NCBI GenBank assembly: GCA_027485575.1
Contig: JAIXQU010000054.1
Coordinates: 1 to 38,873 of the forward strand
Direction of reading: 5' to 3'
DNA from: Cytophagaceae bacterium
GTDB taxonomy: Bacteria; Bacteroidota; Bacteroidia; Cytophagales; Flexibacteraceae
Length of the DNA stretch: 38,873 nt
Below are positions 912 through 23,747 of the stretch, piece after piece. The notes under the pieces were generated by a model, which searched no databases, was not told where the DNA came from, and was given only the letters and a program-made list of their open reading frames with translations. How positions within the stretch are numbered: the stretch's first letter is position 1; each line of letters starts with the position of its first letter. Made by a program: the position numbers and the translations under genes.

Positions 912-3900
912 GTTGGCTTGGCTTGGGCCAGGTACAACGGTTAGAACAACTGTATCTGCCCTGCTTCCACAAGTTGCAGTCGAGATGCTCCACCTGACTT
1001 TGTTTTCGCCAATTCCTAAACCTCTTATGGTTGTAGAGGCGGAACCTGCATTGTCAAATGAACCTGAACCAGAAATCAAATCCCAGAATCCCGTTCCAAC
1101 CAGAGGAACATTGGCTGATAACTGTGCAGAATCTCCACAAATCTGTTGATCATTTCCTGCTATTGAAACATCCGGAGGTAAATTATAGGTAATTGAAACT
1201 GTATCTATAGTTGGACTGCACGTCGCCTGGCGAACCACCCAAACAAATTGGTTTTGACCAACACTTAAATCATTAACCAAACTGGATCTGTCAAGGGAGT
1301 CAACAAAGGTTCCACTACCCGAAACCAATCTCCAAACTCCTGTACCTACCAAAGGATTTTGAGCCTGAAGCAAAGTAGAGGAAACACAAACTGCCTGATC
1401 CTGACCTGCATTCGATTGGCTTGGTCCTGAATTTACATTCACTGTGGCTGTCACAGAAGCATCCGGACATAATCCATCTGAAATGGTCCATTGAAAAACG
1501 TTATCTCCGGTTGAAAGTCCTTTGACTTTTGAATTCGCCAGATTTATATTTTCAAAAATGCCGGTACCACTGATTACTGTCCAGGTTCCGATTCCTCTTG
1601 TAGGAATACTGGCATTCAGTTGGATTGAATCTTCACAAATAAACGGATTACCACCTGGATTTGAAATGGTTAAAGGTTCAGAAACATTGACAACCATTGT
1701 ATCTGCAGAAAGCTGACATCCCGATTTACCAATGGTCCATAACAGTTTATTTTCTCCTGTAGATAAACCACCAACATCGGTGGTATTTAAAAGAAGATCA
1801 ACAAAAACACCCGTTCCGCTTAAAATCTGCCATGATCCTATTCCAGATTGTGGAACATTACCTGCGAGGGTGGTTGAATTGGAACAAATGGTTTGGTCTG
1901 GTCCGGCATTGGCCTGGGTAGGTGGATCTGTAACCGTAATTACAACTGTATCAGAACTTGGCTGACAATTTCCTCCGCTTGTGGTCCAGATAAATTCATT
2001 TATCCCCGGACTTAAATTGGTTACAGTTGTCGCTGCTGTTACTGGATTTGTAATTACACCCGTTCCGGATAATTTCGACCAGGTTCCTGTTGAATTGGCT
2101 ACCAGATTGACAGTAGTTTCACAAATTGTCTGGTCCGAACCCGCATTGGCTTGTAAAGAGCTTCCTACAGTCATTGTTATCGAATTGGACAGAACAGAAA
2201 CAGGCGAAGCACAACTTTCATCAGAGGTTAAATTCAATTGAATTTTATCGCCTTCCTTCAATGTATCGGAGGTATAGGATGGTCCAACTTCAACAAAAAG
2301 ATCATTTAAATACCATTCCAAAGAAGGCAAAGCACCACCGCCGGTAATATTGGATGAAAATGTTACACTGGTTCCGGTACAGATAACAGAATCAGGCGAA
2401 ACTGAAATGGAAGCGGTCGGCGTAATTGAAGTAAGAACATTTACCACAACAGGAACTGAGGTGGCAGTACAGCCGGAATCCAAAGTCGCTGTAACTGTAT
2501 AATTTCCAGCAGCACCAACCACAATGCTTGAACCTGCCACATTGGTGCTCCACAGATAGGAAGTTCCAGCTAAAGGAGGTGTAGAAAGTGTTGTAGAACT
2601 TCCGGAGCAAAAGGTTAAACTTCCTGTATGGTTGACAACTGGAACAGGTGTGGTCTTATAGATTGCCGGATTGTTGTCATTACAATCAAAACTGTTTTGA
2701 ACATAACCATCTGGTTTTATGCAATCCACAGAATCAATTCCTGCATTTCCATAACCATCACCATCGGCATCTGCAAAAAACCGTACACCCGGAGTATTAG
2801 GAATTGAGCCACTTACAAAAACCGATACTCCCAAAGCGTCGGTTACCGTTACGCTGTAAGACCCAGGTCCATTGGTAAATGTTTGACCGATAAATCCATT
2901 ACTCCACACATAGAGAAATGGCCCGGTTCCGCCGGTGGGCGAAGCTGTAAGAGTTCCGTTGATTTGCCCTGCACAAGCTGGAGTTGAAGTTAAGTTCACA
3001 TTGAATAAACCCAACGAAGCTGTGGCCAGATTGTCATCATAATTAAATTCCATGATGCTCGCATTCACGATTTTACCAATCAATGTGGTGGAATTGTCAA
3101 CTACCAACCAGGGGAAATTTAAAATGGTGGAATCATTGGCCGCTACAGAAACAGGAGCTTGTCCGATTTGAATGGTATCACCCTGATTGTTAATGTAAAA
3201 CAATTGAACTACGCCTTCAACATCTTCATCTCCATTGTTGCCAATTCTGGTATTCACTGTTATCGACTGTCCTATGTTTGGACTGGAATTATTAGGCAAA
3301 AATACCTGAAAGAACATATTGGCAGCAGCACCCACTATGACCGCTCTTGTTGCTTCATTGTTCGATTTGGTCGATTCCACGATTACATTATCTGCATCAA
3401 TGATGGTTCGGATAATGTGAGAACCCACTAAATCAGAAGACCATGGTTTTGTAAAGTTTACGGTGAAATTATCTCCCGTCACCAATCCGTTAACCGTTGC
3501 AGAATCATGGGCAATTTCATCAATCAAAACCTTGAATTTCATGGTCTGGTCAATGTTTGAAAGCCCGATATTCTCGTAATTGGCCTGAATGATGATGGGC
3601 TCATTCACATCTGGATTCAACTTGGATGGATTGATAAGCTGCGATAAAACACGCATATCTGGCAAACCGGAAACCTGAACTTTTCTAACAATGGTATTGT
3701 TGGTTTCATCACATTCTGTGTATTGATTGTCAGGATCTGTTACCATGGTAAAGGTATATTCTCCTTCTTCCGGAAATGCAAAACTTACAGGCAAGGTGGC
3801 TATGGTTGGGCAACCACAAGATTCAGTTACATCCGTTAAAATAGCATCACCCAGGTTCAAAGTCCCTGTCAATCCAGGACCACTTACAAAAAATCTGGTT

Positions 3901-19870: not shown

Positions 19871-19982
19871 TAATTTCGAAATCAAATTTGTTTCATCCTG
19901 AATTTAACCAGAAATTTCGGGCTTAAAGTAATTTTGAATTTTTAATTCAATATTTTAATTAATTTTCGAAAAAGATAAAAAA

Positions 19983-20810
19983 ATGACCCGAAGAATACTT
20001 ACTATTTTACTTGTTAATTTAATCACCTTCAGCGCCATTGCGCAAAATTTAACTTATTATGTACTGACCATGAAAGGCTCTGTAATAAGTAAAAATATGG
20101 GGCGGGAATACCAGACAGGCGACATCCTGACTACGGATGATGAACTTACTTTTAAGGGAGAAACCGATATGGTGGGGCTCATCAGGTCCGATGGAAAACG
20201 ATTTGTTTTAAAAAATTCAAAAGAAAAAAAAGGAGCACGGATAAATTATGATGATGCCAAAATGATTGGCAAAACCAGGGTAGAATGGAAAAATCTGACT
20301 CTTAACACTGTCGATGACCTAAGAGAATATTTCTGTGAATCACCTTTTATATTTCTGGATTCAGTAGCTAAAATCAGAATCAACCAAAAGACTTTTGCCC
20401 AAAATGGCGCCCAGTTTTTTTATTTTCATTTTCTCTGGAACAACAGAGGCAAGGTTGAAACGGTTGATAAGAAACTTGAATCCAAAAAGGATACCCTTAT
20501 TTTAAAGCAATCCTCTATTTTCATGGTAGACAAAAAACCTATTGCCCAAAAAGATATAAGTGAATATACTTTAATGTATTATAACAGAGGCGAATTACTC
20601 CGGTTGGGTCTTTTTAATGTTGTTTTTCCGGACCAGGAAAAAATGAAACAGGAAATAAAAATCATGGTAGACATCTACAACAAGAACAATATATCACCAA
20701 AAATTATCCAGGGCGATTGCGAGGCATATATTCGTCAGTTTTATGGTGGCATTGACAAAATCAATCTTGTCCATTGGTTGAAAGTCAATATGGGCGTACC
20801 TGAAAAGTAA
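19983..20810 (+). CDS. Uncharacterised exported protein with FecR-like N-terminal strand pattern
   Basis: The protein has 275 residues, with a signal peptide at about 1-20 (MTRRILTILLVNLITFSAIAQ). Residues 25-90 (VLTMKGSVISKN...YQTGDILTTDDELTFKG...GLIRSDGKRFVLK) resemble the short beta-sandwich seen in FecR-type domains: a K-G-x-V strand, then a G-D-x-L turn, then a D-G-x-R-x-x-L strand. The rest is mixed alpha/beta with no recognised motif. A conserved hypothetical Bacteroidota exported protein is the safest description. Its 3' end converges on the dam gene with a 32-bp gap. Confidence 0.75.
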   Translation: MTRRILTILLVNLITFSAIAQNLTYYVLTMKGSVISKNMGREYQTGDILTTDDELTFKGETDMVGLIRSDGKRFVLKNSKEKKGARINYDDAKMIGKTRVEWKNLTLNTVDDLREYFCESPFIFLDSVAKIRINQKTFAQNGAQFFYFHFLWNNRGKVETVDKKLESKKDTLILKQSSIFMVDKKPIAQKDISEYTLMYYNRGELLRLGLFNVVFPDQEKMKQEIKIMVDIYNKNNISPKIIQGDCEAYIRQFYGGIDKINLVHWLKVNMGVPEK

Positions 20811-20842: not shown

Positions 20843-21694
20843 CTAATAATTCCAGATTAGGACTTCATCTACCTCACCTCTCTGGCTACCGACAGAGTTA
20901 ATGGCACGATTGGCTTTAACAAATTTAATGTTGTAATTCCTGTATTGGTCGGTAATGAATTTTGCCGATGAATTGGAAAGCAAAAATTTCACTCCTTTTG
21001 CATGCAGGAGGTCGCAGCATTCTCTGAGTCTGATTTGTTCCTTCTCATCCCATCCCCCTTGGACATAGCCTGTAAAATTTGAACTTTTAGAAACCGGTTG
21101 GTAAGGAGGGTCTAAATAAACAAAGGATTTATCATCGGTTTTTTCCAGAACCTCAGCAAAATCAAGATTTAAGATTTCAATATTGGCCTGGTTCAGATAT
21201 TGACTATCTGCCCGCAGCGTAGATTCATTGATGAAGTTTGGGGTTTTATACCTACCAAATGGAACATTAAAATACCCGGCCTTGTTTACCCTGTATAAGC
21301 CATTGAAGCAGGTTTTGTTCAGGAATAAAATTCTGGAGGCCCGCTCGACATCCGATAAATTTTCCAGGCCAGGATTGCGGTCCAATTCCCTTATTTTATA
21401 AAAATAATCCCGATCGTTTTTATGCTTTTTTAAATGAGCTATAAGTTCTTCCACATCGTCCCTGACTACTTTGTAAACGTTGACCAGTTCCGTATTAAAA
21501 TCATTGATAATTACCCTTTTTGGTTGTAAATGAAAAAGAACTGCCCCACCCCCAATGAAAGGTTCGATATATTGAAGGTCTTCCATTTTATCAGGCAGAT
21601 GTTGTAAAATGGTGGGCATCAACTGTCGCTTCCCTCCTACCCATTTCAGGAAAGGCGCAACCTTTATTTTCTTGATGAGACTTTCTTTTAACAA
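20843..21694 (-). CDS. dam: D12-class DNA adenine-N6 methyltransferase (Dam/DpnM type), solitary
   Basis: The protein has 283 residues. The AdoMet-binding motif is FLKWVGGK (15-22) with EPFIGGGA (44-51), the catalytic motif IV is DPPY (195-198), and a C-terminal GEVDEVLIWNY follows. This order (motif I, X-like start, then IV) is the alpha group of adenine methyltransferases; Dam and M.DpnIIA members methylate GATC, and that specificity is inferred only by family. The start is TTG at 21694: the frame upstream reaches a stop with no ATG. No endonuclease gene is adjacent on either side: a secreted protein lies downstream and about 900 bp of non-coding DNA lies upstream. It therefore looks like a solitary regulator or maintenance methylase, or the survivor of a lost restriction pair. 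Confidence 0.9.
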   Translation of the reverse strand: MLKESLIKKIKVAPFLKWVGGKRQLMPTILQHLPDKMEDLQYIEPFIGGGAVLFHLQPKRVIINDFNTELVNVYKVVRDDVEELIAHLKKHKNDRDYFYKIRELDRNPGLENLSDVERASRILFLNKTCFNGLYRVNKAGYFNVPFGRYKTPNFINESTLRADSQYLNQANIEILNLDFAEVLEKTDDKSFVYLDPPYQPVSKSSNFTGYVQGGWDEKEQIRLRECCDLLHAKGVKFLLSNSSAKFITDQYRNYNIKFVKANRAINSVGSQRGEVDEVLIWNY

Positions 21695-21973
21695 AACTGC
21701 TTTGCCTAATCGGCTGTTTTTAAGAACTTTAATTATGAAATGCTTATAACCTGATTAACCGAAGAATAGGTCAAACGATTTGCCAAATATCCTTAAAAAA
21801 TCGTATCGCTACCCATCACAGTTCATTTTCTATTCCTGCATGGGTGGGTGTCTCACTTCAGGTCCCTCGCAGGGCATAATTTTCAGACCACTTCCCTGTG
21901 ATGGCAAATGTTACATTTCTGGATATGCGGATACAAGTATGCGACCAAAATCAACATCCTAAATCAAATTGAC

Positions 21974-22147
21974 GCAAAACTAAGTTTTGCCAACACCCCG
22001 ACGTAAAGAAACTTTACGCTGGACAACGGGTTGGCTTTTCGTCGTTATTGGGTCTTTATGCCAAAGGCATACAGGTTGCCCAACAACTCGAAATAGATAA
22101 AAATTCACTACCAACAAAGATGCGCTTGGAAAAGAGTTATTGTTGGT
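21974..22147. repeat. Cluster of short hairpins with 3-nt loops
   Basis: There are three perfect inverted repeats with three-base loops in 100 bp: GCAAAAC/TAA/GTTTTGC (21974-21990), CGTAAAG/AAA/CTTTACG (22002-22018) and TATGCC/AAA/GGCATA (22057-22071). An outer pair, GCCAAC (21989-21994) and GTTGGC (22030-22035), encloses the second hairpin. A further pair, ACCAACAA (22110-22117) and TTGTTGGT (22140-22147), has a 22-nt loop. This looks like a folded RNA or single-stranded DNA element. Confidence 0.8.
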
Positions 22148-22190
22148 GAAAAGATCTATAATGGAAAAACTTATTTCAGAACGAGACACA

Positions 22191-22298
22191 GTTTCAAAAT
22201 CACCGTTTCAAAAAAATCGAAACGATAAATTTGAAACAGTCTTTGTTTCAAAAAAATGGTTTCAAAAAAATTGAAACAGCAAATTTGAAACAACTTTA
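22191..22298. repeat. Two tandem copies of a 54-bp repeat built of GTTTCAAA/TTTGAAAC
   Basis: Copies at 22191-22244 and 22245-22298 agree at about 42 of 54 positions. In each, GTTTCAAA occurs twice at 14-bp spacing (22191, 22205; 22245, 22259) and is followed by GAAAC and AAATTTGAAACA. The half-sites are reverse complements, so each copy can fold or could bind a symmetric protein. Confidence 0.85.
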
Positions 22299-22595
22299 AC
22301 TTTAAATTTGAAAAACAAAAATTCAGAAAATAATGTCCAATGGTACTTCATATTAGAAAAATATGCATTGATTCTTAAAGAAGAGACCCTGGCTAAGGCA
22401 GTTAATAGTGTAGAGTTGTGAATTTACGAATTGACAAAAAACGTAAATGCATCATAACTTAGGCTCACGAATTGAATTAAAGATTTTCAATTCAACTTAA
22501 GCTTAGAATTTTTAAGACTGGAATAATGCCATTTTCTAACATTACCAATTAGGTTTTTCAAACCAAAAATCAGATTTTATAAAAAAACAAATCCC

Positions 22596-23747
22596 TTACA
22601 TTTTCACCCAGGCTGCATTCTTCTCCGACGAAGCAACTACCGCATTTATAAACTTCATTCCCCTCAATCCATCCTCCACAGTTGGAAAATTGATGGCAAA
22701 TGGAAGGCCTTCAGACTTCAACCTCATCACTTGTGCAAATTCTCTGTACAAATTTGCAAATGCCTCTAAATAACCTTCCGGATGACCTGCCGGCAACCTT
22801 GAGGCGGATGTAGATTCTCCAAACAAATAGCCATTGTTTCCTCCTGCCCGGTAGGTTTCCATGGGCTTATCCAAATGTTTTACCAAAAGGGAATTGGGTT
22901 CGGTTTGCAACCATTCCAATCCTGCCTTCTCCCCATAAATCCTGATTTTCAAATTGTTCTCCTCACCAACTGATATTTGGCTTGCCATCAAAACACCTTT
23001 TGCACCTCCCTTGAAACGGAGCAAAACCGTGCCATCGTCATCCAGTTTTCTTCCGGCCACAAAGGTTGTCAGGTCTGCGGCCAATTCATCAATTTCCAAA
23101 CCTGTTATAAATTCAGCCAGGTTTTCTGCGTGGGTCCCAATGTCTCCAATGCAACCTGCCTTGCCGGAACGGGAAGGGTCTGTCCGCCAGGCTGCCTGCT
23201 TCTGGCCTTCATTTTCCAGAAAAGTTGAAAGCCAGCCTTGCGGATATTCTACCACAACCTTCCTGATTTCTCCCAAAACTCCCGCATTAACCATGGCTTT
23301 CGCCTGCCTCACCATGGGATAGCCTGTGTAGTTGTGGGTCAGGCAGAAAAGCCTTCCGGTTTCCTCCACTATTTTCTTTAACTCAACGGCCTCTTCAAGA
23401 CTAAAGCTCAGGGGTTTATCGCAAACCACATCAAATCCATTTTCAAGCGCCATTTTCGCGGGTCCGAAATGCACATGGTTTGGAGTGACAATGGAAATAA
23501 AGTCCATTCTTTCGTTTTCAGGAAGATTTTTTTCTTTTAAAATCATTTCCTCATAACTGCCATAAACCCGGTTTTCGGACAAAAACAAAGATTTACCTGC
23601 CTCTACCGACTTTAACGGGTCTGAACTGAAAGCCCCGCAAACCAATTCTATCTGGCCATCTAAACGTGCAGCAATTCTGTGGACATTACCAATAAAAGCG
23701 CCAGGTCCTCCTCCGACCATGCCCATCCTGAGTTTTCTGTTTTTCAT
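22596..23747 (-). CDS. Gfo/Idh/MocA-family oxidoreductase
   Basis: The protein has 383 residues from the ATG at 23747; an upstream in-frame TTG (23774) would add nine unconvincing residues. The N-terminus has the Rossmann dinucleotide-binding start KLRMGMVGGGPGAFIGNVH. A VTPNHVHFGPA block and the family CDKPLS motif (usual EKP/DKP, with the catalytic-site Lys) follow. Then comes GDIGTHAENLAEFITG, in which the GTH histidine is typical of the sugar-substrate members. The expected role is NAD(P)-dependent oxidation or reduction of a sugar or polyol derivative in the cytoplasm. It lies about 70 bp after the ABC permease gene on the same strand and may share its transcript, though no functional link is obvious. 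Confidence 0.92.
   Translation of the reverse strand: MKNRKLRMGMVGGGPGAFIGNVHRIAARLDGQIELVCGAFSSDPLKSVEAGKSLFLSENRVYGSYEEMILKEKNLPENERMDFISIVTPNHVHFGPAKMALENGFDVVCDKPLSFSLEEAVELKKIVEETGRLFCLTHNYTGYPMVRQAKAMVNAGVLGEIRKVVVEYPQGWLSTFLENEGQKQAAWRTDPSRSGKAGCIGDIGTHAENLAEFITGLEIDELAADLTTFVAGRKLDDDGTVLLRFKGGAKGVLMASQISVGEENNLKIRIYGEKAGLEWLQTEPNSLLVKHLDKPMETYRAGGNNGYLFGESTSASRLPAGHPEGYLEAFANLYREFAQVMRLKSEGLPFAINFPTVEDGLRGMKFINAVVASSEKNAAWVKM

Follow-up and report, generated by a model that had tools for sequence, protein, structure and literature searches.

The locus considered here is a hairpin-rich, non-coding segment of about 180 bp (positions 21970-22150) beside a dam gene in a 38,873-nucleotide contig of a Cytophagaceae bacterium (JAIXQU010000054.1, assembly GCA_027485575.1), the whole of which is referred to as the window. 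In an earlier note, made from the sequence alone, three perfect hairpins with 3-nt loops had been described in this segment, together with an 8-bp inverted pair and an enclosing GCCAAC/GTTGGC pair. All of these structures are present (Table 1), the two inverted pairs having been read directly from the sequence, with GCCAAC at 21989-21994 and GTTGGC at 22030-22035. When the 211-bp segment was shuffled 2000 times with its dinucleotides kept, at least three such hairpins occurred once (shuffle mean 0.087), and single-stranded folding with DNA parameters gave z = -3.5 for the plus and -4.6 for the minus strand, none of 200 shuffles being as good on either strand. The hairpin cluster is real, and an origin by chance is unlikely. 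As set out below, the segment very likely contains a lone terminal repeat, probably inactive, of a transposable element built around a RAYT gene, i.e. a gene for a REP-associated HUH tyrosine transposase (REP, repetitive extragenic palindrome).

A repeat of two hairpins

The repeat, R1, was first found by DNA search of the genome to which the window belongs (G000, 198 contigs), where the window unit matches other contigs even without a model (BLAST, E 1e-7 to 6e-4). An alignment of 16 copies from this genome (A1), the window copy being one of the rows, defines a unit of about 60 bp which, on the minus strand of the window, consists of the core GTTYGGC, a first hairpin with loop TTN, a linker near GTCRGTGTGTTTT and a second hairpin, also with loop TTN. 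One conserved unit takes in hairpins 1 and 2 of the window only, and not the third hairpin. Two-sided changes are found in 10 of the 17 pairs of A1 and 94.9% of the cells pair, with none of 500 shuffles as high; in slid registers, pairing drops to 36-50%. The window copy itself keeps 16 of the 17 stem pairs, and is the sole source of the two-sided changes at A1 columns 17-25, 41-57 and 43-55. The GCCAAC/GTTGGC pair connects the linker of R1 with DNA beyond the unit, and inspection by eye of the other 15 copies in the alignment showed nothing that corresponds to it; because of this position across the unit boundary and the missing counterparts, the pair is probably incidental.

A covariance model built from A1 (window copy included) gave 33 matches in G000 at E<=1, 30 of them at E<=0.01, and elsewhere in the same family nine in G001 and 13 in G002. 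No matches were obtained in G003, G004 and six other family members, and R1 was found in three of the five genomes of the genus. The covariance search that had been suggested in the earlier note thereby brought up homologues with strong covariation in the stems. In a larger alignment of 49 copies to the model (A4), which being model-guided leans toward the structure, two-sided changes were found in 13 of 17 pairs and 143 cells, again with none of 500 shuffles as high. A second covariance model, R2, built from A4 and thus from the window's genus, found units at E<=1e-4 in 17 out of 194 genomes of the order, most of all in G100 (26), G029 (25), G072 (16) and G084 (11). By plain DNA search of 59 genomes, a 191-bp segment gave only one short match outside its own genome, in G015. 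Within G000, GAAGAG-type units (contigs C95, C40, C134, C38, C191 and C170) frequently have a T run after hairpin 2, and this subtype might act as a terminator.

The own-genome copies are found in tandem, inverted and solo arrangements. Among 150 listed matches, 29 pairs were close neighbors (starts within 260 bp), and 20 of these were in (+)(-) order with the cores outside; eight G029 pairs measure 160-162 bp. These pairs look like REPINs. Stems kept for the function of a structured small RNA or a cis-regulatory RNA would be expected to show strong covariation as well, and would agree with the location of 25 of the 30 own-genome units outside reading frames (frames called here). However, the units lie in both orientations and in inverted pairs, and are placed exactly at the ends of moved elements (see below), while Rfam gave no match, either at E<=1 in 21600-22650 or at gathering score over the window. 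In 21600-22650 there was also no terminator-like site, and two promoter-like sites were found versus 3.5 expected. Scans for tRNA and tmRNA in the window also gave nothing. An RNA of this kind, which was one of the candidates of the earlier note, is therefore left without support by Rfam, by terminator-like sites and by the orientation of the units, and we regard it as very improbable. Still less probable is a terminator or attenuator that has spread as a repeat: seven of the 30 units have a run of at least six T among the final nine bases of the model or the 15 bases that follow, and six are situated between convergent and 12 between tandem genes, but five are situated between divergent genes, and at the window copy a T run is missing just as a terminator-like site is.

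Elements with units at their ends

One G000 unit near a Y1 transposase gene on contig C189 was the starting point toward the RAYTs. In the congener G002, a 751-bp element (contig C149:4370-5120) consists of an R1 unit, a RAYT frame and an inverted R1 unit. A second copy, 98% identical, is split over both ends of contig C213, and where the two can be compared both start with CCCCGTTCGGCG and end with CGCCGAACA, i.e. the ends of R1, with different DNA outside. The assembly allows contig C213 to be either the stretch between two element copies or a circle that contains one. Further pieces in G002 are a right-end fragment (86%) on C9 and, on C149, two left ends (95-96%) that stand alone. Also on contig C213 are another RAYT gene, distinct from the first, and a frame resembling an integrase of another insertion sequence (IS) (1486-2049, 3323-3724; by eye).

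A different RAYT family is found at two places on contig C51 of G029, the copies being 97.5% identical over 719 aligned bp. Both have at their ends inverted two-hairpin units, which differ in sequence from R1, with unrelated DNA outside, and their RAYT frames are open. In three pairs of RAYT loci in G045, no clean element boundary was found. This genome has 22 matches to the RAYT alignment, several of them near-identical or broken, which is unusual, as this class of genes is described as low-copy.

Two-hairpin units beside RAYT genes

Named genomes were scanned with an alignment of four RAYTs, and the best 80 of 453 relatives, with Bacteroidota titles, were kept, 65 of them with enough flanking sequence. 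By a rule set here (a stem of 7 or more, a linker of 5-16 and a stem of 5 or more, within 400 bp of the gene), a two-hairpin unit was found near the RAYT in 59 of 65 loci, versus 7 of 65 control windows located 1.5 kb away in the same loci (Fisher P 1e-21, a value that overstates independence, as some of the loci are closely related). Units on both sides of the gene and in inverted order were present in 35 loci, and the inverted similarity of upstream and downstream flanks was above the maximum of the control in 57. With an earlier control, made from other loci, only two out of 76 loci were above its 99.9th percentile for inverted flank similarity; this control was judged to be inflated, since the loci share repeats, and was replaced by the 1.5-kb windows after the first result was known.

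When the two models were run on the 80 named loci, R1 gave five matches at E<=1, four of which lie within about 300 bp of the gene, and R2 gave 15 at E<=0.5, of which 13 lie within 700 bp of a RAYT (L203, L209, L213 and L214) and two, in L200, do not. Across 14 genomes, R2 units were found within 200 bp of seven out of 67 RAYT loci, with eight matches versus 0.13 expected, a Poisson figure that is only a guide because the matches cluster. Three of the seven loci belong to training genomes, and four (in G029, G065, G084 and G100) are outside training. R2 was trained on the window's genus, and its matches in other genomes are found mostly beside RAYT genes. Besides the G002 element with R1 on both sides, R2 units flank the gene on both sides and in inverted order in G061, G100, L209 and L213.

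In a tree of 110 RAYTs (a quick tree, with long branches flagged), the 12 located beside R1 or R2 units need seven changes versus a shuffled mean of 11.6, and none of 500 shuffles was as low. Eight of the 12 are found among the 10 rows of a single branch (SH-aLRT 95), which includes G002 and Parabacteroides, and the other four, including C189 of G000 and C71 of G084, are placed elsewhere. A reading of the units as integron attC sites was dropped when the units proved to sit at the ends of RAYT elements, no search for an integron integrase having been made.

The transposase protein

The RAYT on contig C189 matches the solved TnpA-REP structure 4ER8 of E. coli (E 7.6e-5), while the L214 protein, from the R2 branch, has weak PDB matches only, to transposases (E 0.035-0.098). 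Both pass the 80-bit cut-off of the NCBIfam REP-associated tyrosine transposase model, and the C120 (76.6) and C149 (64.2) RAYTs of G000 fall under it; with the NCBIfam IS200 model, L214 scores 28.6, below the cut-off of 55. In an alignment of six RAYTs (A5), N59, H60, H62, Y143, I144, H145, N147, P148, S163 and S164 are invariant, in agreement with the signature given in PMC6006769 for TnpA-REP subclass 2.6, also known as RAYT group 5 (NH[LIV]H and Y-I-H-x-NP, followed downstream by SS). In the C189 protein the first of these motifs reads NHCH. The W--- region reads WE or WT in several rows, and WQ in PMC6006769.

Comparison with known repeats and transposases

That RAYTs of this class are flanked by atypical hairpins is already known. 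As described in PMC6006769 (Quentin et al. 2018), the REPtrons of subclass 2.6 are likewise formed by Bacteroidetes RAYTs, and their flanking atypical secondary structures are without the GT[AG]G tag and have copies elsewhere in the genome. The difference is that two families, in G002 and G029, appear here to have moved with their ends at the units. Like the GTAG-tagged REP, BIME and REPIN sequences of Proteobacteria, the R1 units are scattered short palindromes, linked to RAYTs and often found as inverted pairs, but they have two hairpins each, and at the hairpin foot the tag is missing. No unpaired GT[AG]G is found there; what is conserved 5' of hairpin 1 is the core GTTYGGC, and GTAG is found only inside the stem of some copies. 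Copy number also differs, i.e. 30 in the own genome versus the hundreds typical of REPs.

Members of IS200/IS605 similarly have an HUH Y1 transposase and hairpins near their ends, are compact and move as a unit. In contrast to these, the R2-branch RAYTs are of class 2 (Y---NP) and do not have the class 1 signature (DH[VI]H, Y-[IV]-E-N-Q; signatures from PMC6006769), and the ends of the RAYT elements are inverted bipartite units. Yet another likeness is to the CGTC-tagged REPs (Di Nocera et al. 2013, PMC3733652), as CGTC follows hairpin 1 in most R1 copies. According to that paper, CGTC repeats are listed in Bacteroidetes, and are defined by a terminal CGTC tag, a stem of 8-9 with an AT foot, a loop of 4-5, a CCA tail and the lack of a transposase, none having been found beside them. 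R1, as read from A1, differs in that its loop has a length of 3, the CG of CGTC takes part in stem pairing, an AT foot is missing, each unit has two hairpins, and units flank RAYTs.

As described in PMC8266576, tnpA-REP or RAYT genes are without evidence of mobility, and the spread of REPs is unsolved. The word Bacteroidetes is absent from the main text of PMC2817692, and PMC11194056 reports RayT genes near a resistance gene in Chryseobacterium. Neither two-hairpin ends nor movement as a unit was found in the literature searched, which comprised titles and the starts of abstracts, with subscription papers, supplements and preprints outside reach.

Origin of the window copy

Taken together, a complete element would consist of a Bacteroidota-type RAYT gene (subclass 2.6) placed between two inverted bipartite units, in the order core, hairpin 1, linker, hairpin 2, gene, hairpin 2', linker', hairpin 1' and core'. 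The parts of this scheme that can be read off the sequences are the structure of the unit, its covariation, its place at both ends of RAYT elements, and the two-site copies whose ends fall exactly at units. By analogy with the literature on HUH and TnpA-REP enzymes (PMC8266576), the transposase would bind the unit as a folded single strand and cut at or near the outer core, with strand transfer to follow, and might in this way move single or paired units as well as the whole element. In the window, a unit would have inserted alone or been left behind, after which its core would have drifted. Two of the candidates put forward in the earlier note, a recombination site folding as single-stranded DNA and the end of a lost mobile segment, come close to such a RAYT terminal repeat.

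Several observations weigh against this origin. Both RAYT frames of G002 are broken, by different small changes, and this genome is a draft assembly with its second copy split over two ends of one contig. The share of RAYT loci with a nearby R2 unit, seven of 67, is small, which can be explained by each lineage seemingly having its own repeat, and C71 of G084, with an R2 unit within 200 bp, belongs to another branch than most R2-adjacent RAYTs. In G000, five RAYT-like genes were found (on C31, C121, C189, C120 and C149), plus IS200-type genes, but none from the R2 branch, none with R1 on both sides, and only the C189 gene with an R1 unit nearby. This gene, with R1 177 bp away, was tried as the cognate RAYT and rejected, as it has other hairpins at its flanks and belongs to another tree branch, and the proximity is probably incidental. 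Other hairpin sequences were seen by eye at the flanks of four of the five genes, C121 being less clear. The cognate R2-branch RAYT of G000 may have been lost, or may lie in an assembly gap. The branch of the C120 gene (L019 in G000, and L133 and L134 in G001 and G002) is surrounded by many GGTTCGAG(loop)CTCGAACC hairpins, which constitute a further repeat family of the genus.

The core of the window copy is GTCCAGC instead of the family GTTYGGC, and its stems are intact. It is probably a fossil; the term inactive is here only an inference, because the core varies between subfamilies too. Stems that are kept despite a different core could also point to a repeat of mobile origin that was co-opted by the host, e.g. 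as a protein-binding site, and such host roles of REPs are discussed in PMC3733652 and PMC8266576. The distribution is patchy, however, both in the order and in the genus, and co-option is an alternative only to reading this copy as a fossil, leaving an origin from a RAYT element unaffected. We consider it improbable.

For the RAYTs at large, we lean slightly toward the view that subclass 2.6 includes, besides settled, domesticated genes, autonomous, IS-like elements of about 720-750 bp with inverted bipartite two-hairpin ends, which shed lone ends and REPIN-like pairs over the genome, and would represent a living intermediate between IS200/IS605 and REP systems. If the copies at two places with ends exactly at two-hairpin units are confirmed, they would provide a defined substrate, defined boundaries and, in the open-frame G029 transposases, the means for a direct test of DNA movement by RAYTs. 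What this means for the window is more modest, an orphan repeat copy.

Other features of the locus

The 180 bp do not form a single element but a mosaic of the R1 unit, a fragment resembling the flank of a different RAYT gene, and an unassigned hairpin; outside R1, the stretch appears to be debris of other repeats (Table 1). The fragment gave a 37-nt local alignment to the C149 region of G000 with a score of 44, the best of 11 comparisons, where 200 shuffles reached 33 at most, and 84% identity over 37 nt by BLAST (E 3.4e-4 to 6.2e-4). Its counterpart precedes the likely start of the C149 RAYT by about 20-60 bp. The right arm of the 8-bp pair resembles half of a TTGTTGGTG(4)CACCAACAA palindrome, for which 15 sites with at most three mismatches were found in the own genome versus three for a reversed control pattern. 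The possibility that 22031-22080 is a decayed, inverted second R1 unit was rejected, since the R1 model has no match there at E<=5, and no second unit was found at E<0.9 within 22029-22250. Weak matches at 19898-19955 (17.6 bits) and 21865-21925 (12.2 bits) are not claimed as units.

Table 1. Features of the hairpin segment in window coordinates.
Feature	Position	Strand	Evidence or remark
R1 unit: core (GTCCAGC here), hairpin 1, linker, hairpin 2 in minus-strand order	21969-22028	-	Covariance model R1, 66.9 bits, E 2.5e-13 in own genome
Hairpin 2 of R1 unit, 7/3/7	21974-21990	-	Two-sided changes in 5/7 helix-2 pairs of A1
Hairpin 1 of R1 unit, 7/3/7	22002-22018	-	Two-sided changes in 5/10 helix-1 pairs of A1
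Third hairpin, 6/3/6	22057-22071	.	Unassigned to a repeat family; no R1 match at E<=5
8-bp inverted pair ACCAACAA (22110-22117) / TTGTTGGT (22140-22147)	22110-22147	.	Right arm inside the 22116-22152 fragment
Fragment like DNA just upstream of another own-genome RAYT gene (contig C149, ~31.2-31.5 kb)	22116-22152	-	

The distance from the R1 unit to the dam frame is 275 bp, and that to the next frame is 568 bp; nothing was found that ties the 180-bp segment to dam, next to which the earlier note had placed it. The dam gene (20843-21694) codes for a Dam-family methyltransferase (TIGR00571), for which the best PADLOC model is 'orphan methyltransferase', and the 275-aa frame beside it (19983-20810) is without a Pfam, NCBIfam or PADLOC match. 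Finally, positions 22191-22291 hold a separate repeat, an array of GTTTCAAA / TTTGAAAC arms, with relatives in the own genome at C106:49-108 and C198:783-829.
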